Positions 2,698-11,817 of a stretch of DNA of 11,817 bases are shown here, in pieces (within the stretch, counting starts at the first letter, position 1; every line of letters begins with the position of its first letter). Origin of the DNA: an uncultured Clostridia bacterium (GTDB taxonomy: Bacteria > Bacillota > Clostridia > Monoglobales > Monoglobaceae); assembly GCA_945878965.1 (NCBI GenBank), contig CAMCUJ010000016.1:1-11817 (forward strand), given 5' to 3'. A program made the translations under genes and the position numbers. The notes below the pieces were generated by a model that was not told the origin of the DNA, made no database searches, and saw only the letters and a list, made by a program, of their open reading frames with translations.

Positions 2698-3066
2698 ATG
2701 AAATTTAAAATGGTACACGAAAACTATAATGTTTTAGATTTAGACAAGTCTATGGAGTTCTATAAGGCGGCACTTGGAATTACGGAAAAAAGACGAATTA
2801 CGGCTGAGGACGGTTCATTTATAATAGTTTATCTCGGAAATGATGAAACGGATTTTGTACTCGAGCTTACATGGCTTCGTGATATGGACAGACCTTATAA
2901 TCTCGGTGACTGCGAGTTCCATCTTGCGTTTGAAGCTGATGATTTTGAAGCGGCTCATAAGCTTCACGAGGAAATGGGTTGTATCTGTTTTGAAAATAAG
3001 GATATGGGCATTTATTTTATATCAGACCCGGATGGATATTGGCTTGAAATAGTTCCGGCAAAATAG
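2698..3066 (+). CDS. gloA: Glyoxalase I-like VOC family protein (lactoylglutathione lyase family)
   Basis: A 122-residue vicinal-oxygen-chelate protein of the single-domain glyoxalase I size, with two beta-alpha-beta-beta-beta halves. The family's four metal ligands are all in place: His7, Glu56, His75 and Glu117. The C-terminal signature DPDGYWLEIV covers residues 110-119. Glyoxalase I isomerises the methylglyoxal-thiol hemithioacetal in the cytosol. In Clostridia that lack glutathione the thiol partner may differ, so the symbol is by family resemblance. AAGGAG at 2682-2687 lies 10 nt before the ATG. Its own promoter is at 2620-2648 and a hairpin follows at 3077-3114, so it is probably monocistronic. 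A weak terminator could allow some read-through into the sugar operon. Confidence 0.85.
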   Translation: MKFKMVHENYNVLDLDKSMEFYKAALGITEKRRITAEDGSFIIVYLGNDETDFVLELTWLRDMDRPYNLGDCEFHLAFEADDFEAAHKLHEEMGCICFENKDMGIYFISDPDGYWLEIVPAK

Positions 3067-3076
3067 TTATTATCTG

Positions 3077-3114
3077 AATTCAGTATACTTTAATAAAATA
3101 AGGTATGCTGAATT
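3077..3114 (+). terminator. Hairpin after the glyoxalase-like gene, weak terminator
   Basis: Bases 3077-3090 pair with 3101-3114 in a 14-bp stem with two G-U pairs and a 10-nt loop. The tail is TATTATTATG rather than a clean T-run, so termination is probably incomplete. No convincing -35/-10 pair is visible between this hairpin and the rfbF start at 3213. The nearest candidate, TTGACG at 3162-3167, has no good -10 at proper spacing. Confidence 0.5.
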
Positions 3115-3196
3115 TATTATTATGAATTATATTTTGAAATTACTAAAGTTTTTTGTGAAAATTGACGATATATTATGTAAATGCAGCTATTTATAT

Positions 3197-3212: not shown

Positions 3213-3989
3213 ATGAAAGTAGTTATTTTGGCGGGAGGTCTTGGAACTCGTATAAGTGAGGAAAGTCACCTAAGACCTAAGCCTATGATTGAGATAGGGG
3301 GTTCTCCTATACTATGGCATATAATGAAGTATTATTCATATTTTGGGTATAATGAATTTGTGATTTGCTGTGGATATAAGGGATATATGATAAAGGAATA
3401 TTTTGCAGATTATTATTTACACCGTTCGGATATTACATTTGATTTTTCCGATAATAATAATATGACGATACATAATAATGTTGCAGAGCCTTGGAAGGTT
3501 ACGGTTGTAGATACGGGACTTAATACCCAGACAGGCGGAAGAATAAAGCGTGTTCAGAAGTATATCGGAAATGAGTCGTTTATGCTTACATACGGAGATG
3601 GTGTAAGTGATGTAGATATTAATGAGCTTGTAAGGTTTCACAATGCACATGGAAAGATTGCAACAATTACAGCTATACAGCCCGGCGGAAGATTTGGTGT
3701 TTTGGATATTGATGAAAATCAGGGAGTTCGTCAGTTTTCCGAGAAGAATAAAGAAGATGGCGGCTGGATAAACGCCGGGTTTATGGTTTTAAATCCCGAA
3801 GTTTTTGATTATCTTGGCGGTGATGACTGTGTTTTTGAACGTATTCCTCTTGAGAAGCTTGCAAAAAACGGCGAGCTTATGTCATTTAAACACAGAGGGT
3901 TTTGGCAGTGTATGGATACACTTCGTGACAAGGAACGATTAGAATATCTTTTATTACACGAGCAAGCAACGTGGAAAAAATGGAACTGA
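3213..3989 (+). CDS. rfbF: Glucose-1-phosphate cytidylyltransferase
   Basis: Makes CDP-glucose from CTP and glucose 1-phosphate in the cytosol, the entry step to CDP-linked deoxysugars. The protein is 258 residues, the usual RfbF length. It has the nucleotidyltransferase loop GGLGTRISEESHLRPKPM at 8-25, whose ESHLRPKPM version is characteristic of RfbF rather than RmlA or GalU. YGDGVSD at 127-133 (Asp129) and WQCMDTLRDK at 231-240 (Asp235) match the family's metal-binding aspartates. First gene of the eight-gene operon, with the next start 26 bp downstream. The cytidylyltransferase identity suggests that downstream sugar enzymes act on CDP-sugars, including those normally drawn as UDP-sugar enzymes. 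Confidence 0.95.
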   Translation: MKVVILAGGLGTRISEESHLRPKPMIEIGGSPILWHIMKYYSYFGYNEFVICCGYKGYMIKEYFADYYLHRSDITFDFSDNNNMTIHNNVAEPWKVTVVDTGLNTQTGGRIKRVQKYIGNESFMLTYGDGVSDVDINELVRFHNAHGKIATITAIQPGGRFGVLDIDENQGVRQFSEKNKEDGGWINAGFMVLNPEVFDYLGGDDCVFERIPLEKLAKNGELMSFKHRGFWQCMDTLRDKERLEYLLLHEQATWKKWN

Positions 3990-4015
3990 AATATAAGTAG
4001 AAAGGATTAGTTATA

Positions 4016-5116
4016 ATGAGCGGAATTTCTGATGTACTTAAAGAAGATTTAGAATATACATATAATAAGCTGTCGGCTGAAGAAGTGAAAAAATTAGAAA
4101 ATTCATCAATTTTAATTACCGGCTGTGCCGGATTTTTAGGTTATTATTTTGTTAATTTTTTTTATTATCATAAGGACAAGCTTAATCTTAAAAATGTAAT
4201 ATGTCTTGATAATTTTATGCTGGGATATCCGAAGTGGCTTAATGAAATTGCTGAGGACGAAAGATTTATTGTTAAGAAATTCGATATAATAAAAGACAAG
4301 ATTGAAGATATTTCCGAGGCTAAGGAGGCTGATTATGTAATACATATGGCGTCTATTGCATCTCCGGTATTTTACAGAAAGTATCCTATAGAAACTCTTG
4401 ATGCGAATATTTGGGGACTCAGACGTTTGTTTGATTTCTATATAGACAAAGAACTTAAAGGATTTTTGTTCTATTCTTCGAGTGAGCTTTACGGGGATCC
4501 TACTCCCGATGCGATACCGACAGATGAGGAATACAGAGGCTTTGTTTCGGCAACCGGACCACGTGCGTGTTATGATGAGTCTAAGAGGTTTGGCGAGACT
4601 ATGTGTATGCTGTTTGCACAGAAATATAATATGCCTATAGGTGTTGCAAGACCGTTTAATAACTACGGACCGGGGATGAAGCTTAATGATAAGCGTGTAC
4701 CTGCGGATTTTGCCAAAAATATTGTTGATGGAAATGATATAGTTATACTATCAAATGGAACACCTACGAGAACTTTTTGCTATATTGCGGATTCTATTGC
4801 CGGATATCTTAAGATTTTGCTTTACGGAAAATATGATTATTTCAATATAGGAATTGAAAAACCCGAAATTACAATAGCTCAGCTTGCGGAATTGTATATG
4901 AACGCCGGCAAGGAATTGTTTGATTATAAGGGACAGGTCATATATAAGGTTTCTGAGGAAAAAGAATATCTTACAAATAATCCTCAGAGGAGATGCCCAA
5001 AGATTGATAAAGCAAGACGTTTGCTTGGTTATGAGCCGGAGATTTATGCAGAGCAGGGTGTATATAGATTTTTGAAATTCATTAAAGAAAGTACAGAGGA
5101 GCAATTGATATGGTAA
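4016..5116 (+). CDS. UXS/ArnA-like NAD-dependent SDR, putative nucleotide-sugar decarboxylase
   Basis: An extended short-chain dehydrogenase of 366 residues. A 30-residue N-terminal extension precedes the Rossmann motif GCAGFLG (36-42). The catalytic region has SSSELYGD (154-161) and Tyr186-x3-Lys190 within GPRACYDESKR. NPQRRCPKI (322-330) follows near the C-terminus. Residues Ser156-Glu157 and an Arg in the NPQRR segment match the Ser-Glu/Arg signature of UDP-glucuronate decarboxylases (UXS and the ArnA decarboxylase domain), and GPRxCYDExKR is a UXS hallmark. It lacks the features of CDP-glucose 4,6-dehydratase (RfbG). A plausible role is oxidative decarboxylation of an NDP-glucuronate to a 4-keto-pentose or xylose derivative, supplied by the dehydrogenase encoded next. 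Its stop overlaps that gene by 7 bp. AAAGGA at 4001-4006 precedes the ATG by 9 nt. Substrate, nucleotide and exact outcome are inferred; a 4-epimerase or 4,6-dehydratase activity cannot be excluded. Confidence 0.8.
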   Translation: MSGISDVLKEDLEYTYNKLSAEEVKKLENSSILITGCAGFLGYYFVNFFYYHKDKLNLKNVICLDNFMLGYPKWLNEIAEDERFIVKKFDIIKDKIEDISEAKEADYVIHMASIASPVFYRKYPIETLDANIWGLRRLFDFYIDKELKGFLFYSSSELYGDPTPDAIPTDEEYRGFVSATGPRACYDESKRFGETMCMLFAQKYNMPIGVARPFNNYGPGMKLNDKRVPADFAKNIVDGNDIVILSNGTPTRTFCYIADSIAGYLKILLYGKYDYFNIGIEKPEITIAQLAELYMNAGKELFDYKGQVIYKVSEEKEYLTNNPQRRCPKIDKARRLLGYEPEIYAEQGVYRFLKFIKESTEEQLIW

Positions 5117-6342
5117 CAGTATTCGGATTGGGGTTTGTTGGTCTTACGACAGCTTTAGGTTTTGCACATCTTGGGTATAAGGTTTATGGAATAGATGTTG
5201 ACGAAGAAAGAAAAAACACATTAAGACACGGAGAACTTCCGTTTTATGAGCCATATATGGATGAGGTGCTTACAGAGCATCTTGATAAAAATTTTTTTGT
5301 TACCGATGATATAAAAAAGGCTGTTTCGGAAAGCGAATATATATATTATTGTGTGGGAACTCCATACGGTAAGAACGGAAGTGCAAATCTTGAATACTTG
5401 TTTTCCGCAATAGATATGGCGTCTAACGCAGTTGATGATGATAAGTTTAGGGTTATGGTTATTAAGTCCACCGTTCCTCCGTCAACTACGGCAGAAAAGG
5501 TATATCCTTATGTTAAGGCGAAAAATAAGAATTTCGGTGTTGCAAATAATCCGGAATTTTTGAGAGAAGGCTACTGCTGGAAGGACTTTATTGAAGCAGA
5601 CAGAATAGTGCTTGGCTGCAACGATGAAAAATCCAAAGAAATGCTTATAAAATTATATGAACCTATGAATATACCTATAAAATGTGTATCACATTCTACA
5701 GGCGAATTTATTAAGTATTTATCAAATACTCTTCTTGCAACATTAATAAGTTATTCAAATGAGATGTCTCAGGTTGCGGACGCTATCGGCGGAATTGAGA
5801 TTGGTGAAGCGTTTAAGATTTTACATATGGATAAGAGATGGAATAACTGTAATATGACAAGCTATGTTTATCCGGGCTGCGGATACGGCGGTTATTGTCT
5901 TCCAAAGGATACCTGTGCACTATACAGCCAATCTGAAGCTAAGGGCTTCAGTCCGCAGATACTTAAAAATGTTATAAACACAAATGAAAAAATTTCAAGA
6001 GCTATAGCCGAAAAAATAGCTAAGGGACTTGATAATAGTGCTAAAATAGGAATACTTGGTTTATCGTTTAAGCCTAATTCAGATGATGTAAGGGATACTC
6101 CGGCGGCTAAGATTATAAAAGAGCTTAATGCACTTGGATATAAGAATATATATGCATATGATCCGATTGCAAATGCTGAATTTAAGAGAAGGTATCCGGA
6201 GATTAATATAGAGTATAAGGAAAGCGCAAAGGCGGTTTCAGACAGCTCGGATGTTATTGCTATAGTTACGGCTTGGGATGAATTTAAGGTATTTAAGCAT
6301 GTTAAAGATAAAAAAATTATTGATTGCAGATATATGCTGTAA
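5110..6342 (+). CDS. Nucleotide-sugar 6-dehydrogenase (UDP-glucose/GDP-mannose dehydrogenase family)
   Basis: A complete 410-residue member of the family that oxidises the C6 hydroxyl of an NDP-hexose twice, using 2 NAD+, to an NDP-uronic acid. The N-terminal NAD domain starts with GLGFVG at 6-11. NPEFLREG at 147-154 and IKYLSN at 201-206 (Lys202, Asn206) supply expected active-site residues. GCGYGGYCLPKD at 256-267 holds the catalytic Cys263, and GLSFKPNSDDVRDTP lies at 317-331 in the C-terminal domain. The Cys loop departs from the common GPGFGGSCFPKD. The start overlaps the preceding gene by 7 bp, and GAGGAG at 5096-5101 serves it, so translation is probably coupled. UDP-glucose is the usual substrate. 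Placement between rfbF and rfbH makes CDP-glucose a reasonable alternative, which is inference. Confidence 0.9.
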   Translation: MVTVFGLGFVGLTTALGFAHLGYKVYGIDVDEERKNTLRHGELPFYEPYMDEVLTEHLDKNFFVTDDIKKAVSESEYIYYCVGTPYGKNGSANLEYLFSAIDMASNAVDDDKFRVMVIKSTVPPSTTAEKVYPYVKAKNKNFGVANNPEFLREGYCWKDFIEADRIVLGCNDEKSKEMLIKLYEPMNIPIKCVSHSTGEFIKYLSNTLLATLISYSNEMSQVADAIGGIEIGEAFKILHMDKRWNNCNMTSYVYPGCGYGGYCLPKDTCALYSQSEAKGFSPQILKNVINTNEKISRAIAEKIAKGLDNSAKIGILGLSFKPNSDDVRDTPAAKIIKELNALGYKNIYAYDPIANAEFKRRYPEINIEYKESAKAVSDSSDVIAIVTAWDEFKVFKHVKDKKIIDCRYML

Positions 6343-6364
6343 AAAAGGATAGAGGGTTAGGTTT

Positions 6365-7678
6365 ATGGATAAGCAAACTATACTTGAAAATGTTAAAGAA
6401 TATTACAAAGAGCATTGCTCGGTTAAAGAATACAAGGATGGCGATAGAATAAATTATGCCGGTCGTATATATGATGAAGAAGAATTATGCAATTTAGTAG
6501 ATTCATCTTTGGAATTTTGGCTTACTGCCGGAAGATATAATGATGAATTTGAAAAGGGGCTTGCAAAGTATCTTGGTGTACCGTTTTGTGCAACCACAAA
6601 TTCGGGTTCTTCCGCCAATCTTTTAGCGGTATCGGCTTTAACTTCGCCGCTTTTGGGTGATAGAAGAATTAAAAAGGGAGATGAAATAATTACAGTTGCA
6701 GCTTCATTTCCTACAACAGTTACACCGATAATTCAAATCGGTGCGGTTCCTGTATTTGTTGATATTGATGTACCGTCATATAATATTGACCCATCGAAGC
6801 TTGACGGAGCATTGAGTGATAAAACTAAAGCTGTTGTTATTGCACATAGTCTTGGAAATGTCTTTAATCTTAAGGCTGTTAAAGAATTTTGTGATGCTAA
6901 TAATTTATGGCTTGTTGAGGATAATTGTGATGCACTCGGCGGCGAATATACAATGAATGGAGTTACAGCAAAGACGGGAACAATCGGTGATATCGGAACG
7001 TCAAGCTTTTATCCGGCTCATCATATGACAATGGGAGAAGGCGGAGCGGTATATACTAAAAATCCTTTACTTAATAAGATTGTTCGTTCGCTTCGTGACT
7101 GGGGACGTGACTGTGTTTGCACAGGCGGTCAGGACAACAGATGCGGAAAGCGTTTTGAAGGTCAATATGGAGAACTTCCTTATGGATACGACCACAAATA
7201 TGTGTATTCACATTTGGGCTATAATCTTAAAATAACAGATATGCAGGCTGCTATCGGCTGTGCACAGCTTAAAAAGCTTCCGAGTTTTGTTGAAAAAAGA
7301 CGTTATAATTGGGATTATATGCGTGATGCGCTTAAGGATTTGGAAGATGTTTTGATTTTACCTGAAAAAGAAGAGAACTCTAATCCAAGCTGGTTTGGAT
7401 TTATTATGTCTGTAAAGGAAAGCTGTAAAAAAACACGTGATGAAATAGTGGATTACATTGAGAATAATAATATTCAGACACGTAATTTGTTTGCGGGAAA
7501 CATAGTAAGACATCCGTGCTTTACTTCACTTGAGAACGGAAAAGATTACAGAATAGCGGGAGGTTTGGAAAAAACCGATTTTGTTATGAAGAATAGCTTT
7601 TGGATAGGAGTTTATCCGGGAATGACAAAAGCTATGCTTGATAAAATGGTTACAGTAATTAAGGAAAGTGTTAAATAA
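6365..7678 (+). CDS. rfbH: CDP-4-keto-6-deoxyglucose-3-dehydrase (E1), RfbH
   Basis: Belongs to the DegT/DnrJ/EryC1 fold but is the PMP-dependent C3-dehydrase (E1, AscC/RfbH) rather than an aminotransferase. It removes the C3 hydroxyl of a CDP-4-keto sugar with electrons from an E3 reductase. Length is 437 residues, the usual RfbH size. SSFYPAHHMTMGEGGAV at 213-229 carries His (219-220) where aminotransferases have the PLP-binding Lys. Cys188 in EDNCDALGG together with Cys250, Cys252 and Cys260 (C-x-C-x7-C) match the [2Fe-2S] ligand pattern of E1. AGAGGG at 6351-6356 precedes the ATG, 22 bp after the dehydrogenase gene. No ferredoxin/flavin reductase (RfbI/AscD type) is seen in the window, so the electron donor must lie outside it. 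The native substrate may be a 4-keto-pentose here, given the neighbours. Confidence 0.95.
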   Translation: MDKQTILENVKEYYKEHCSVKEYKDGDRINYAGRIYDEEELCNLVDSSLEFWLTAGRYNDEFEKGLAKYLGVPFCATTNSGSSANLLAVSALTSPLLGDRRIKKGDEIITVAASFPTTVTPIIQIGAVPVFVDIDVPSYNIDPSKLDGALSDKTKAVVIAHSLGNVFNLKAVKEFCDANNLWLVEDNCDALGGEYTMNGVTAKTGTIGDIGTSSFYPAHHMTMGEGGAVYTKNPLLNKIVRSLRDWGRDCVCTGGQDNRCGKRFEGQYGELPYGYDHKYVYSHLGYNLKITDMQAAIGCAQLKKLPSFVEKRRYNWDYMRDALKDLEDVLILPEKEENSNPSWFGFIMSVKESCKKTRDEIVDYIENNNIQTRNLFAGNIVRHPCFTSLENGKDYRIAGGLEKTDFVMKNSFWIGVYPGMTKAMLDKMVTVIKESVK

Positions 7679-7720: not shown

Positions 7721-8542
7721 ATGATTAACAATATAAAGATTTTTGACTGTTCATTAAGAGAGATAGGATATCAGACAGGATGGTATTTTTCCGAAAAAAC
7801 AGTTAGGGATTTATATAAGTTTGCCCTTGGAAAGAGTATTGATTATGTTGAAATAGGATTTTTTCATAATATAGAGGCAGATCCCGGCTACGGCTGTTTC
7901 AGATATTGCAGTACAAAAAATGATGAAGTGGCAGAAATGTTTTGGCACGTAAAGAATTTAACTAAAATATCTGCTATGCGTGATGTGCAAAGACCGCTTT
8001 CGGAGCTTTTGCCTAAGAAAGAGAGTGTAGTTGATACAATTAGACTTTTAACACGTTCGCATGAAACCGACCTTGATATTTTAGACAGAATGACTGATGA
8101 AGCACTTGAGCTTGGCTATGAAGTTTTTTTGAATTTTACAAGTGCGGGTTATAACGATATAGAAAAGAATATTCGTTTTGCTGAATTTGCAAAATCAAAA
8201 GGCGTAGCCGGAATGGAGTTTGCAGATACCGAATCGGTTATGACAGAGGAATATGTTATTAATACAATTCGTGAATGCCATAAGGTAGGAGTAAAGCTTG
8301 GCTGTCATTTCCACGATAAAAACGGAACGGCGGATATGCTTGCAGATACAGCAATTCGTGAGGGTGCGGATTTTATGGATGTTACACATCTTGGACTTGG
8401 CGGAAAATGGCGTGACGGCAATCTTACTATGGAATATCTGCTCAGAAAGATGAACATAAATGCCGGATACGAGGCAACTGTTATAAAGAATGAGATTATT
8501 GAGGATTTAATTAAATATCACGAATTCAGTGCGGCGGTTTAA
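7721..8542 (+). CDS. Short HMGL-like (DRE-TIM metallolyase) aldolase
   Basis: A 273-residue TIM-barrel protein related to 4-hydroxy-2-oxovalerate aldolase and HMG-CoA lyase. FDCSLREIG (8-16) gives the metal-binding Asp9 and catalytic Arg13 of the D-x3-R signature. GCHFHDKNG (194-202) gives the HxH metal pair, and GLGGKWRDGN (225-234) is a variant of the GLGG-AGN loop. The family cleaves or forms carbon-carbon bonds next to a 2-oxo acid such as pyruvate, with a divalent metal. It ends soon after the barrel and lacks the C-terminal extension of the roughly 340-residue DmpG-type enzymes, so it should not need an aldehyde dehydrogenase partner. Its position between rfbH and a ThDP enzyme that uses 2-oxo acids suggests it makes or adjusts that donor, or acts on the sugar itself. 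The reaction cannot be assigned from sequence. Confidence 0.8.
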   Translation: MINNIKIFDCSLREIGYQTGWYFSEKTVRDLYKFALGKSIDYVEIGFFHNIEADPGYGCFRYCSTKNDEVAEMFWHVKNLTKISAMRDVQRPLSELLPKKESVVDTIRLLTRSHETDLDILDRMTDEALELGYEVFLNFTSAGYNDIEKNIRFAEFAKSKGVAGMEFADTESVMTEEYVINTIRECHKVGVKLGCHFHDKNGTADMLADTAIREGADFMDVTHLGLGGKWRDGNLTMEYLLRKMNINAGYEATVIKNEIIEDLIKYHEFSAAV

Positions 8543-8584: not shown

Positions 8585-10360
8585 ATGAAAATATCCGATT
8601 ACGTTATGGATTTTATAGTCGATTTAGGTGTAAATCAGATTTTTTATATAAGCGGCGGCGGGGCTATGCACCTTAATGATTCGCTTGGAAGAAACGAAAG
8701 ATTAACCGGTGTTTGTATGCTGCATGAACAGGGCTGTTCAATTGCTGCGGAAAGCTATGCAAGAATATCGGAGAGTTACGGTGTATGTCTTGTAACCTCG
8801 GGTCCAGGAAGTACAAATGCAGTTACCGGAGTTGTAGGTGCTTACCTTGATTCAATTCCTGTTATTTTTATTTCGGGACAAGCTAAACGTGCGGATTTAG
8901 TGGGAAATCAAAAGATACGTCAATTCGGTATACAAGAGGTTGATATTGTATCAATGGTGAAGTCTGTTACTAAATATGCGGTCCAGATACAAAATCCTGA
9001 GGATATAAAATACGAAATGGAAAAAGCGGCGGCAGTTGCAATGAACGGCAGACCCGGTCCCGTGTGGATTGATATTCCGCTTGATATTCAGGCATCTCAA
9101 GTTGATATAGATGAACTTAAAGGCTTTGACAAGTCGGAGCTTTCGGATTATCCTTGCAAGCGTGATGATATTGATAAAACTATAGAATTATTTAATAAGG
9201 CAGAAAGACCTGTCTTAATTTTGGGAAATGGTATAAGACTTAGCGGTGCTGTGAAAGAAGCGAGAGAACTATATGAATTTTTGGGTGTTCCGTGCCTTAC
9301 CACATGGAACGGTGTTGATTTAATAGAGGATAATCACCCGTTGTTTTATGGAAGACCCGGAGCTATCGGTCACAGACATTCTAACTTTATTCAGCAGAAT
9401 GCGGATTTTGTTCTTACTATAGGAACAAGACTTAACCTTCTTTCAACCGGCTATAATTATGAAAGATTTTTGGGTAAGGCAAATCATATAATGGTTGATA
9501 TTGATATGTATGAAATGGAGAAAAAAAGCGTTCATCCTCAGCTTAAGGTTCATGCTGACGCTAAATCATTTATTGAATCAATGCTTAAGCGAAGGGATGA
9601 TATAGATAATTCAAAACGTGAAAATTGGATTAAGCATTGTGATATGCTGAAGGAAAAATATCCGCTTTCTATTCCGGAGCAGAAGCCGTCGGACGGATAT
9701 GTAAGCACTTATGATTTAATAGATGAGATAACAACTCAAATGACGGATAATGATATTTATCAGTTTACAAGCTCCGGAAGCTCGGTTGATATTGCAATGA
9801 AAACATTCAGAATTAAAAAGGGTCAGCGTGCATTTTTAACTAAGGGACTTGCAGCTATGGGTTATGATTTGCCTGCATCAATAGGCAGTTGTATTGCATC
9901 AAACGGAAAAAGAACCGTTTGTGTAACAGGTGACGGAAGCATTGTTATGAACATACAGGAGCTTGAGGTTTTAAAAAGACTGAATCTCCCTGTAAAATTG
10001 TTCGTAGTTGATAATAACGGCTACAGTATGATATACGGCTCGCAGAATGGAAATTTCAAAGGTCATTTAACAGGCTGTACTGTGGAATCCGGTCTTACAC
10101 TTCCGGATTTAAAGGCTGTTGCCGAGGCTTTTGGAATACAAGGTTTTCATATTGAGAATACGGAGGAGCTTCATAATACAGTTAAGGATGTTCTTGAGTT
10201 TGACGGTCCTGCCTTATGTACAGTTAAGGCGGATATAGCTCAAAAGATACTTCCGAAGCAGACAAATTATATGCGTGAGGACGGACAGATGGCGTCAAGA
10301 CCTCTTGAGGATATGTCGCCGCTGCTTGACAGAGAAGAATTTGAGGGGAATTTGATATGA
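8585..10360 (+). CDS. Acetolactate-synthase-like ThDP-dependent enzyme (YerE-like candidate)
   Basis: A full 591-residue three-domain thiamine-diphosphate enzyme. The N-terminal PYR domain has the catalytic Glu48 in MLHEQG and the TSGPGSTNAVTG loop (71-82). The central domain (about 190-330) resembles the FAD-binding domain of acetolactate synthases. The C-terminal PP domain has GDGSIVMNIQELEVL (449-463) and VVDNNGY (474-480), the Mg-ThDP motif. Such enzymes decarboxylate a 2-oxo acid and transfer the acyl carbanion equivalent to a carbonyl. No regulatory subunit (ilvN/ilvH) or other branched-chain amino acid gene is nearby. The context of rfbF, rfbH and an SDR parallels yersiniose synthesis, where YerE adds an acetyl unit from pyruvate to C4 of a CDP-3-deoxy-4-keto sugar. 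GGAGGA at 8574-8579 precedes the ATG, and the stop overlaps the next gene as ATGA. The acceptor and donor are inferred. Confidence 0.85.
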   Translation: MKISDYVMDFIVDLGVNQIFYISGGGAMHLNDSLGRNERLTGVCMLHEQGCSIAAESYARISESYGVCLVTSGPGSTNAVTGVVGAYLDSIPVIFISGQAKRADLVGNQKIRQFGIQEVDIVSMVKSVTKYAVQIQNPEDIKYEMEKAAAVAMNGRPGPVWIDIPLDIQASQVDIDELKGFDKSELSDYPCKRDDIDKTIELFNKAERPVLILGNGIRLSGAVKEARELYEFLGVPCLTTWNGVDLIEDNHPLFYGRPGAIGHRHSNFIQQNADFVLTIGTRLNLLSTGYNYERFLGKANHIMVDIDMYEMEKKSVHPQLKVHADAKSFIESMLKRRDDIDNSKRENWIKHCDMLKEKYPLSIPEQKPSDGYVSTYDLIDEITTQMTDNDIYQFTSSGSSVDIAMKTFRIKKGQRAFLTKGLAAMGYDLPASIGSCIASNGKRTVCVTGDGSIVMNIQELEVLKRLNLPVKLFVVDNNGYSMIYGSQNGNFKGHLTGCTVESGLTLPDLKAVAEAFGIQGFHIENTEELHNTVKDVLEFDGPALCTVKADIAQKILPKQTNYMREDGQMASRPLEDMSPLLDREEFEGNLI

Positions 10361-11232
10361 ATGTTTTGATAACCGGCGCAACAGGATTTATCGGAGCTGC
10401 ATTATGCTGTGAAATGCTTAACAGCGGTCATAACGTTACAGCAGTAACTCGCCCTAATTCACCTAAAAGAGATAAGCTTCCGAGCGGAGTTTCGGTTGTT
10501 GAACTTGAACTTGACAAAATTACGGAATTGACAGGAAGCTATGATGTATGTTATCATTTAGCATGGAACGGTTCATCGGGAAATGCGAGAAATGATTTTG
10601 ATATTCAGATGAGTAACATAAAATACACGGCTGATGTTATAAGAACTGCCAAAAGGCTTGGCTGTCAGAAATTTATAGGAGCGGGCAGTCAAGCAGAGTA
10701 TGGAGTTGTAAATGGAGTTTGTGATGAAAATATGGCTCCGAATCCGTTTATGATGTATGGTGCGGCAAAGCTTGCATCGTTTCATATGGGCAGAATTGTT
10801 GCGCTTCAAGAAGAGATAAGCTTTGTATGGCCGAGAATTTACAGTGTTTACGGCGTTGGCGAGAATGAAGGAACTTTAATCAGTTACCTTGTAGATTGTC
10901 TTAAGAATAATATAAAGGCAGAGCTTTCGCCGTGTGAAAATATGTGGGATTTTATGTACATAACAGACTGCACAAAGGCATTGAGAATACTTGGTGAAGT
11001 AAAAAAAACGGACGGAATTTACAATGTTTCGGCAGGCAAGCCGAGGCTTTTAAAGGAGTTTGTAAATGAGGCAAGAGCGGTAATAAATCCGAATGCGGAA
11101 ATTGAATTCGGAGCAAAGACCGCAGACCCTAAGCGAACATTTTGGCTTGAACCGAATGTGGAGAAGCTTTTTAAGTTGGGTTTTGAATGTGAAGTTGAGT
11201 TTAAAGAAGGAATCAGGAGGAAAATGGGATGA
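10357..11232 (+). CDS. NAD(P)-dependent SDR, likely nucleotide-sugar ketoreductase
   Basis: An extended SDR of 291 residues. GATGFIG at 7-13 binds the cofactor, and GAGSQAEYG (108-116) gives the catalytic Ser111. Tyr134-x3-Lys138 lies in MYGAAK, and DFMYITD lies downstream. Size and motif layout resemble ketoreductases that finish CDP-dideoxysugars (CDP-paratose and CDP-abequose synthase types) and the reductase paired with YerE in yersiniose synthesis. In this operon it would reduce the keto or acetyl group left after C3 deoxygenation and branching. Coupled at both ends: the start overlaps the ThDP gene stop by 4 bp, and the stop overlaps the radical SAM start by 4 bp. GAGGGG at 10343-10348 is its ribosome site. 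An epimerase is also possible. Confidence 0.85.
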   Translation: MNVLITGATGFIGAALCCEMLNSGHNVTAVTRPNSPKRDKLPSGVSVVELELDKITELTGSYDVCYHLAWNGSSGNARNDFDIQMSNIKYTADVIRTAKRLGCQKFIGAGSQAEYGVVNGVCDENMAPNPFMMYGAAKLASFHMGRIVALQEEISFVWPRIYSVYGVGENEGTLISYLVDCLKNNIKAELSPCENMWDFMYITDCTKALRILGEVKKTDGIYNVSAGKPRLLKEFVNEARAVINPNAEIEFGAKTADPKRTFWLEPNVEKLFKLGFECEVEFKEGIRRKMG

Positions 11233-11817
11233 ATAGTGATAAACTGCATGGATTAGAGTTATCGTTGACAATAGGCTGCAAGCTTGATTGCGATTATTGT
11301 CCTCAAAAGTTATTACTTGGTAAGTATTATGGCGAGGATAAAAGCAGGGCGAGAAAGCTGAGTTTTGAGAATTTTAAGATTGTGCTTGACAAGGTTCAGC
11401 AGGGAGCAACATTGTCTTTTTGTGGTATGTCAGAACCGTTTCACAATGAAGAATGTGCTGATATGATAGTATATGCTTATGAAAGAGGATATAAGGTATG
11501 CCTTAATACTACATTGGTTGGTATGACTGTTTCGGATTTTGAGAAGATAAAGAACGTGCAGTTTGAAAATTTTATTTTGCATATTCCCGATAAAGATAAT
11601 CATTCTAAATTTGTTATTACAGATGAGTATTTAAAGCTTTTAAAGCTTGTTAATGATAATATAAAAATTGACTATTATTCATGTCATGGAATTGTTCATG
11701 AAGCAATAGAAAATATAATTGATAAAGATAAATATGCAGGTATTGTACTTAAAAATCGTGCGGGAAATCTTGAGATTGAAAATGTGAAACAAATCTCAAG
11801 AAAAGGTAAGATTATTT
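11229..11817 (+). CDS. Radical SAM protein, 3' end outside the window
   Basis: Open from the ATG at 11229 to the right edge, 196 codons with no stop. Cys17-x3-Cys21-x2-Cys24 (CKLDCDYC) binds the [4Fe-4S] cluster that cleaves S-adenosylmethionine. SFCGMSEPF (63-71) matches the GxxEP-type motif that contacts the methionine part. AGGAGG at 11215-11220 lies 8 nt upstream and the start overlaps the SDR stop by 4 bp, so it is translationally coupled and belongs to the sugar operon. Radical SAM proteins in glycan clusters may epimerise, deoxygenate or modify a nucleotide sugar, or carry a C-terminal SPASM or Twitch domain. That part is not visible, so the substrate is unknown. Confidence 0.9.
   Translation, partial: MNSDKLHGLELSLTIGCKLDCDYCPQKLLLGKYYGEDKSRARKLSFENFKIVLDKVQQGATLSFCGMSEPFHNEECADMIVYAYERGYKVCLNTTLVGMTVSDFEKIKNVQFENFILHIPDKDNHSKFVITDEYLKLLKLVNDNIKIDYYSCHGIVHEAIENIIDKDKYAGIVLKNRAGNLEIENVKQISRKGKII

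Follow-up and report, generated by a model that had tools for sequence, protein, structure and literature searches.

An rfbF-linked operon with a UXS-like SDR and a proposed CDP-4-keto-pentose pathway in an uncultured Clostridia bacterium

Operon and proposed pathway

The DNA stretch analyzed here, i.e., the window, is the entire contig CAMCUJ010000016.1 (C16; 11,817 bases) of an uncultured Clostridia bacterium, whose draft genome comprises 1.52 Mb in 255 contigs and is 79% complete. In this contig, rfbF and rfbH enclose the genes of a UXS/ArnA-like short-chain dehydrogenase/reductase (SDR) and a nucleotide-sugar 6-dehydrogenase. As judged from sequence, the trio of RfbF, UXS-like SDR, and dehydrogenase (the core) probably makes a cytidine diphosphate (CDP)-linked 4-keto-pentose, which RfbH and the enzymes encoded downstream would process.

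The four genes lie head to tail on the + strand, exactly where a first-pass annotation of this DNA had placed them (Table 1). rfbF and the SDR gene are separated by 26 bases, the SDR and dehydrogenase genes overlap by 7 bases, and rfbH follows after 22 bases. The operon extends beyond 7678 with genes for an aldolase, a thiamine diphosphate (ThDP) enzyme, a second SDR, and a radical S-adenosylmethionine (SAM) protein truncated at 11817. Eight + strand genes, spaced by small gaps or overlaps, thus run from 3213 to the contig end at 11817.

In the proposed pathway, RfbF would make CDP-glucose, and the dehydrogenase would oxidize its C6 to give CDP-glucuronate. The SDR would oxidize C4, decarboxylate the sugar, and release the 4-keto-pentose, as ArnA does with the uridine diphosphate (UDP) sugar. 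RfbH would then take off the C3 hydroxyl of the CDP-4-keto-pentose. This route was put forward in the first-pass annotation and is still the best reading, each catalytic step being a prediction. That annotation stopped before the genes past 7678, which point to branching at C4 by a YerE/ErwE-like enzyme. The ThDP enzyme would put an acyl unit on C4, the donor probably being a 4-hydroxy-2-oxo acid from the aldolase, and the second SDR would reduce the ketone of the branch. The final product is predicted to be a CDP-3-deoxy-4-C-branched pentose that goes into a surface glycan.

Core enzymes

RfbF scored above the cut-off of the curated glucose-1-phosphate cytidylyltransferase equivalog (Table 1). 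The 6-dehydrogenase exceeded the cut-off of TIGR03026 (354 bits against 190) and contained all three domains, i.e., PF03721, PF00984, and PF03720. Its catalytic Cys263 was conserved in 84/84 sequences. In the SDR, Ser156, Glu157, Tyr186, Lys190, and Arg326 were kept in 87/87 sequences, i.e., 81/81 of the first lineage and 6/6 of a second lineage described below. The residues named in the first-pass annotation, i.e., Ser156-Glu157, the conserved Arg, and Cys263, are therefore present and conserved across their families. Six very divergent SDR rows (L016, L182-L184, L186, and L187) were excluded from the residue counts, and the own-genome RmlB and C82 rows were not used in the comparison.

The SDR reached no NCBIfam cut-off. 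Its closest solved structures were human UXS1 chains (155-158 bits), followed by a next match of 82 bits, and ArnA gave at most 68 bits. A profile search with the SDR family gave 186 bits for UXS1, 108 for 8V4G, and 78 for UAXS. The earlier assignment as UXS-like, and not 4,6-dehydratase-like, is borne out by these scores.

The SDR gene fills the slot of rfbG between rfbF and rfbH, and it could be asked whether it encodes a cryptic CDP-glucose 4,6-dehydratase replacing RfbG. However, the SDR reached only 31.5 bits with TIGR02622, the model of RfbG (cut-off 278), Ser-Glu stands in place of the Asp-Lys pair of RfbG, and the adjacent 6-dehydrogenase would be left without a role, which makes such an enzyme very improbable. 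The SDR as RfbG itself was ruled out by the same score, together with the fact that the own genome, which is 79% complete, has no rfbG above the cut-off; the operon also has none. An apiose-synthase-like, ring-contracting enzyme giving CDP-apiose is likewise very improbable. UAXS belongs to the same group of SDRs (46 bits against the window SDR), but UXS1 is much closer both directly (158 bits) and with the profile. UAXS has Cys before the catalytic Glu, whereas Ser precedes it in 87/87 sequences here, and apiose would offer RfbH no suitable substrate.

Nucleotide preference

In the Campylobacter jejuni CDP-6-glucitol oxidoreductase 8V4G, cytosine is held by the side chain of Asp212 and by Thr227, according to passages of PMC10918830. 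By profile alignment, these residues match Asp231 and Ser246 in the SDR encoded by the window; residue numbers of the chain differ by 2 from those in the paper. Asp231 and Ser246 were invariant in 81/81 first-lineage and 6/6 second-lineage SDRs. Among 17 ordinary UXS controls, position 231 was Asn in 13, Thr in 3, and Lys in 1, and position 246 was Gly in all 17. RfbG, a CDP enzyme, had Asp at the position aligned with 231 in 32/32 rows (27 distinct sequences). Asp231 would pair with the amino group of cytosine, whereas Asn would pair with the carbonyl of uracil.

In the dehydrogenase, the loop before the catalytic Cys had Tyr252 and Cys257 in the two core lineages alike (78 and 6 sequences), against less than 10% of 29 controls. 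This loop is a candidate base-preference site with a putative base contact. A dehydrogenase 51% identical to that of the window, with the same base-loop sequence, was seen at L189 (G279:C174), a 4-kb contig with no visible core genes.

Recurrence of the core in other genomes

When GTDB genomes were scanned with an alignment of 20 SDR homologues, 217 relatives were found, and the counts given here for loci cover the best 80 of the 217. Identity thresholds at the loci were at least 40% for rfbF, 45% for RfbH, and 40% for rfbG. The dehydrogenase was found at 79/80 loci, the missing one being cut by a contig end. rfbF was found at 72 and RfbH at 24 of the 80. The SDR and dehydrogenase genes were at most 100 bp apart in 76 of the 79 loci having both, and RfbH lay no more than 106 bp from the core in 23 of its 24 loci. 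Because this spacing recurs, the association of SDR, dehydrogenase, and RfbH is not due to chance. Where RfbH was absent, rfbF was still present in 53/56 loci. In three of the eight loci without rfbF (L022, L026, and L042), the sequence reaches 7 to 10 kb upstream, so rfbF is truly not adjacent there; L055 has 4 kb upstream and the other four less than 2.5 kb.

The hosts were Bacillota, Bacteroidota, Spirochaetota, Synergistota, Actinomycetota, Chloroflexota, and archaeal metagenome-assembled genomes (MAGs), and many of the 80 loci were from rumen and gut genomes. Three archaeal MAGs, i.e., L025, L054, and L080 (Thermoplasmata, Methanomassiliicoccaceae, and Methanobrevibacter), carried SDR and dehydrogenase, and L025 and L054 also RfbH. 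Gene transfer with gut bacteria is a probable source of these copies, or else a binning error.

A second lineage came from a search with the window SDR in 299 genomes sampled evenly across the phylum. Six further genomes matched at 44-47% identity, and 18 matches were weaker (29-38%). In the six loci, the genes of RfbF, an SDR, the UXS, and a dehydrogenase stood side by side (6/6), with rfbF of L221 on the other strand. The gene order noted in the first-pass annotation thus recurs both in the 80-locus set and in this lineage. Among the weaker matches, about 12 are true UXS and about 6 are probably other SDRs; several have a dehydrogenase, and 0/18 had rfbF within 1.5 kb or up to the contig end. 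Likewise, neither annotation nor tblastn revealed rfbF within 9 kb at six plasmid UXS loci, apart from a 22% match to galU. A Fisher test was also made, which counted the window itself (7/7) and used the 18 weaker matches as controls; as about 6 of these may not be UXS, more weight is given to the counts. The Halolamina plasmid locus instead carries galU and aglM, i.e., the UDP counterpart of the three-gene logic.

In the SDR tree, the rfbF-linked SDRs of both lineages grouped in a single clade (100/96), with 23 other rows outside it, although the bootstrap had not fully settled. This clade and 17 UXS rows shared one side of a 100/100 branch, with 6 remoter SDRs on the opposite side (midpoint root). 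For this tree, 38 of the 81 first-lineage SDRs were removed by thinning at about 80% identity, and L015 and L185 were excluded for length.

In the genome sample, rfbF itself was more often beside rfbG. The survey gave 41 rfbF matches, and among the 30 given as loci, 16 had rfbG (at least 38% identity) within 1.5 kb, 1 (the window) had a UXS-like gene, and 13 had neither. Four of these 13 have a weaker rfbG match of 33-35%.

Two unrelated routes might share the operon, i.e., the dehydrogenase and SDR would make UDP-glucuronate and UDP-xylose, and RfbF and RfbH would depend on RfbG from another locus. UDP sugars are known substrates of both families, a single dehydrogenase of this family is encoded in the own genome (79% complete), and rfbG is present in 6 of the 24 genomes with core and RfbH. 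However, the other 18 have no rfbG above the cut-off (genome completeness not given), and the search for a separate rfbG, named in the first-pass annotation as a check, was accordingly negative in most genomes, as in the own genome. rfbF also stays with the SDR clade (72/80 and 6/6 loci), including nearly all loci without RfbH, the cytosine-type residues are invariant in the SDR, and the true UDP set comes with galU. A shared operon of this kind is therefore unlikely.

Partner enzymes and proposed release of the ketone

RfbH, ArnB-like, RmlC-like, and FdtA-like families act on nucleoside diphosphate (NDP)-4-keto sugars. In 38/80 loci, a pyridoxal 5'-phosphate (PLP) transaminase of the ArnB/PseC type lay no more than 100 bp from the core, and 6/80 had an RmlC-like protein at a distance of up to 2 kb (in L081 with rfbG beside it). 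A partner, i.e., RfbH, transaminase, or RmlC-like protein, was found in 68/80 loci; of the 12 without one, 7 are cut by contig ends. RfbH and the ArnB-like transaminase (above 700 bits) never co-occurred among the 80 loci. The PLP Lys was present in 37/37 transaminases, and one representative was PseC/ArnB-like by NCBIfam, at scores below the equivalog cut-offs. RfbH matches of 24-30% identity in Bacteroidales loci were rejected as RfbH on the same Lys and the same representative. In the second lineage, an FdtA/WxcM-like cupin was found in 5/6 loci and an RmlC-like gene in 1/6. At L223, the gene of the FdtA-like cupin (11244-11609) is interrupted by an in-frame stop, whereas the rest of this second-lineage core is intact.

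L081 (11068-14743) is an unusual locus, in which the dehydrogenase is split in two frames and is followed by rfbG and the RmlC-like gene. It has perhaps switched from the pentose to a 6-deoxyhexose route.

A LicD-family gene (above 300 bits) was found in 40/80 loci, mostly of Bacteroidales and often inside the core, and two representatives were assigned to PF04991; the window contig has none. LicD proteins transfer phospho-groups from CDP-linked donors. In the Bacteroidales loci L028-L083, LicD-family genes lie in or beside the core and adjoin the ArnB-like transaminase, which suggests sugar phosphate transfer from a CDP-amino-pentose. A flagellin gene (above 300 bits) was in the flank of 7/80 loci, all with RfbH, and none was on the window contig. 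Because it flanks these RfbH loci, flagellin may be an acceptor in the Bacillota concerned.

The SDR is taken to release the ketone, because its partners are 4-keto-sugar families and precedents for NDP-4-keto-pentose release exist, i.e., EvdS6, ArnA, CalS9, and AtmS9 in passages of PMC10338323. It could also close the UXS cycle and end at CDP-xylose, with RfbH and the others using something else or leaked ketone. The catalytic residues of the SDR are those of UXS, and such enzymes can give mixtures, as described for EvdS6 in the same passages (PMC10338323). However, the 4-keto-sugar family partners at most of the 80 loci, and the FdtA-like or RmlC-like genes of the second lineage (6 loci), would be left unexplained by CDP-xylose as the end point, and we consider it improbable.

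RfbH

The PRK15407 score of RfbH (Table 1) is above the cut-off of 423. His219 and Cys188/250/252/260 were conserved in 23/23 core-linked RfbH, including that of the window. We take His219 to be the replacement of the PLP Lys, and the four Cys to be the iron-sulfur cluster ligands. In a tree of 51 RfbH, from which two partial sequences (L018 and L025) were left out, the proteins did not form one clade by context. Five context changes were counted, at least three of them forced by supported branches; judging from this tree, RfbH has joined the core more than once. One core-linked clade of 14 (100/99) includes the window RfbH and an archaeal MAG.

Three positions differed between core-linked and rfbG-linked RfbH. 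Position 114 was Ala/Ser in 21/23 against 5/20, position 162 was Ser in 19/23 against 1/20, and position 220 was Gln/Phe in 13/23 against 0/20; the window RfbH keeps His220.

Downstream enzymes

The aldolase has the TIM-barrel fold and the metal-ligand pattern D..HxH. The 4-hydroxy-2-oxo acid aldolase models PRK08195 and TIGR03217 were not reached (33 and 27 bits against cut-offs of 229 and 286), and the protein works at most like a 4-hydroxy-2-oxo acid aldolase. The ThDP enzyme matched 8rph, i.e., JanthE in passages of PMC12188165, far better than the next best, acetolactate synthase (267 bits). Its role with a ketone acceptor is proposed from this YerE-like similarity. The radical SAM family of the last gene recurs after the ThDP gene in three loci, i.e., L019 of Clostridium beijerinckii (two copies), L021, and L026, and possibly performs a late sugar-tailoring step. 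The combination of RfbH, aldolase, YerE/ErwE-like ThDP enzyme, and SDR suggests a 3-deoxy, C4-branched pentose.

Points against the CDP-4-keto-pentose route

Besides the six genomes with rfbG, several points weigh against the proposed route. rfbG was also found in the retrieved stretch of 2/80 loci, and in L081 it adjoins an RmlC-like gene that is counted among the six. The lone dehydrogenase of the own genome might serve UDP-glucose, because it is the only one of its family there. At the second cytosine place, the RfbG references (4 examined) have Arg, not Ser/Thr. The Thr of EvdS6 implicated in the reductive half-reaction (passages of PMC10338323) is aligned with Ser in 79/81 SDRs, with the hydroxyl retained, and sequence cannot separate a ketone-releasing UXS from one finishing as xylose. 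The four cupins scanned scored higher with PF14667 (61-65 bits) than with FdtA (40-50 bits, cut-off 23), both being above the cut-off. The aldolase is a putative donor source by its fold and position. No E3-type reductase for RfbH was found in the window, and the incomplete genome gave one marginal PF00175 match (22.7 bits). The residue shifts at positions 114, 162, and 220 of RfbH were dropped as evidence of a pentose substrate, because they were not significant after tree correction (sign test, 3 supported independent pairs).

Other features of the window

A terminator-like hairpin parts the operon from the upstream glyoxalase gene; it was recognized by consensus match, and 8 such hairpins were found in the region against 5.0 expected. 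Upstream lie ordinary neighbors, i.e., an ArsC/Spx-like protein (2192-2542, - strand) and the glyoxalase-like protein (2698-3066, + strand). A secreted-looking protein (305-2101) contains a 300-nucleotide block twice (770-1069 and 1550-1849), 98% identical in DNA, which is either a recent duplication or an assembly effect.

Table 1. Coordinates of the operon genes and the preceding hairpin in the window.
Feature	Coordinates	Strand	Proposed role	Basis or remark
Terminator-like hairpin (strong, 18 pairs)	3075..3116	+		before rfbF
rfbF, glucose-1-phosphate cytidylyltransferase	3213..3989	+	makes CDP-glucose	TIGR02623 413 bits, cut-off 300
UXS/ArnA-like SDR	4016..5116	+	proposed CDP-glucuronate decarboxylase giving CDP-4-keto-pentose	human UXS1 158 bits; catalytic residues; Asp231/Ser246
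Nucleotide-sugar 6-dehydrogenase	5110..6342	+	proposed CDP-glucose 6-dehydrogenase (CDP-glucuronate)	TIGR03026, three Pfam domains, Cys263
RfbH, PLP/[2Fe-2S] enzyme	6365..7678	+	CDP-4-keto-sugar 3-dehydrase	PRK15407 702 bits; 3bcx 517 bits
DRE-TIM aldolase	7721..8542	+	proposed maker of 4-hydroxy-2-oxo acid donor	alternative start GTG 7715
YerE/JanthE-like ThDP enzyme	8585..10360	+	proposed acyl addition to C4 ketone	8rph 415 bits; ThDP motif GDG at 449
Extended SDR	10357..11232	+	proposed branch-ketone reductase (YerF-like role)	PF01370 115 bits; role inferred from position after ThDP gene
Radical SAM protein	11229..11817	+		cut by contig end; PF04055 25.6 bits, below cut-off 29.5

Comparison with known systems and significance

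The RfbF-RfbG-RfbH (DdhA-DdhB-DdhC) pathway to CDP-3,6-dideoxyhexoses shares the RfbF and RfbH families, the CDP link, and C3 deoxygenation of a 4-keto sugar. In the window, however, the 6-dehydrogenase and the UXS-like decarboxylase replace RfbG, and the backbone would be a pentose. The Ugd-ArnA-ArnB route to UDP-4-amino-4-deoxy-L-arabinose likewise uses a 6-dehydrogenase, then a ketopentose-releasing decarboxylase, then a PLP enzyme at the ketone (passages of PMC10338323). Here, in contrast, a cytidylyltransferase is in the operon, the SDR has cytosine-type residues, and the PLP enzyme is RfbH, with the ArnB-like enzyme at other loci.

Branching also has its counterparts. In the everninomicin pathway, the branched sugar eurekanate is likewise proposed to arise from a 4-keto-pentose, the product of the UXS-family enzyme EvdS6. 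That enzyme was assayed with UDP-glucuronate, the ThDP enzyme proposed there is a pyruvate-dehydrogenase-like heterodimer, and the passages on the pathway name no step by RfbH (PMC10338323). In yersiniose and erwiniose formation, YerE/ErwE branches CDP-3,6-dideoxy-4-keto-hexose, so that a YerE-like ThDP enzyme also acts after RfbH, and ErwE uses 4-hydroxy-2-oxo acids (passages of PMC12247030). The latter fits the aldolase of the window operon, whose gene adjoins the ThDP gene, whereas the acceptor here would be a pentose. The C. jejuni HS5.17 CDP-6-D-glucitol oxidoreductase (8V4G/8V4H) is also a CDP-dependent extended SDR with an N-terminal extension, and it contacts the cytosine with an Asp and a hydroxyl-bearing residue (passages of PMC10918830). 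It is an oxidoreductase, whereas a decarboxylase is proposed here, and it is more distant from the SDR family than UXS1 by the profile scores given above.

CDP-D-xylose is named in passages of PMC8987622 and PMC10918830, in a citation of RfbG crystallized with this compound. No CDP-glucuronate, CDP-4-keto-pentose, or CDP-pentose pathway was found in the open-licence literature of PubMed Central, subscription papers and preprints being outside it, and the first-pass annotation had not recognized the pathway as described either. To our knowledge, all known CDP-deoxysugars come from CDP-4-keto-6-deoxyglucose made by RfbG.

It is reasonable to consider CDP-4-keto-pentose as an undescribed hub in bacteria and some archaea, and on balance we regard this as likely. 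One rfbF-linked decarboxylase clade would make the compound, and RfbH, ArnB-like, RmlC-like, and FdtA-like enzymes would diversify it into CDP-pentoses, including a 3-deoxy C4-branched pentose that is perhaps placed on flagellin in some Clostridia. If true, CDP-deoxysugar chemistry would gain a second entry, through a uronate and its decarboxylation on CDP, and RfbH a new class of substrates. The core yields a short list of enzymes testable with CDP-glucose, and it predicts unrecognized pentoses, amino-pentoses, and branched pentoses in the surface glycans of its rumen and gut hosts.

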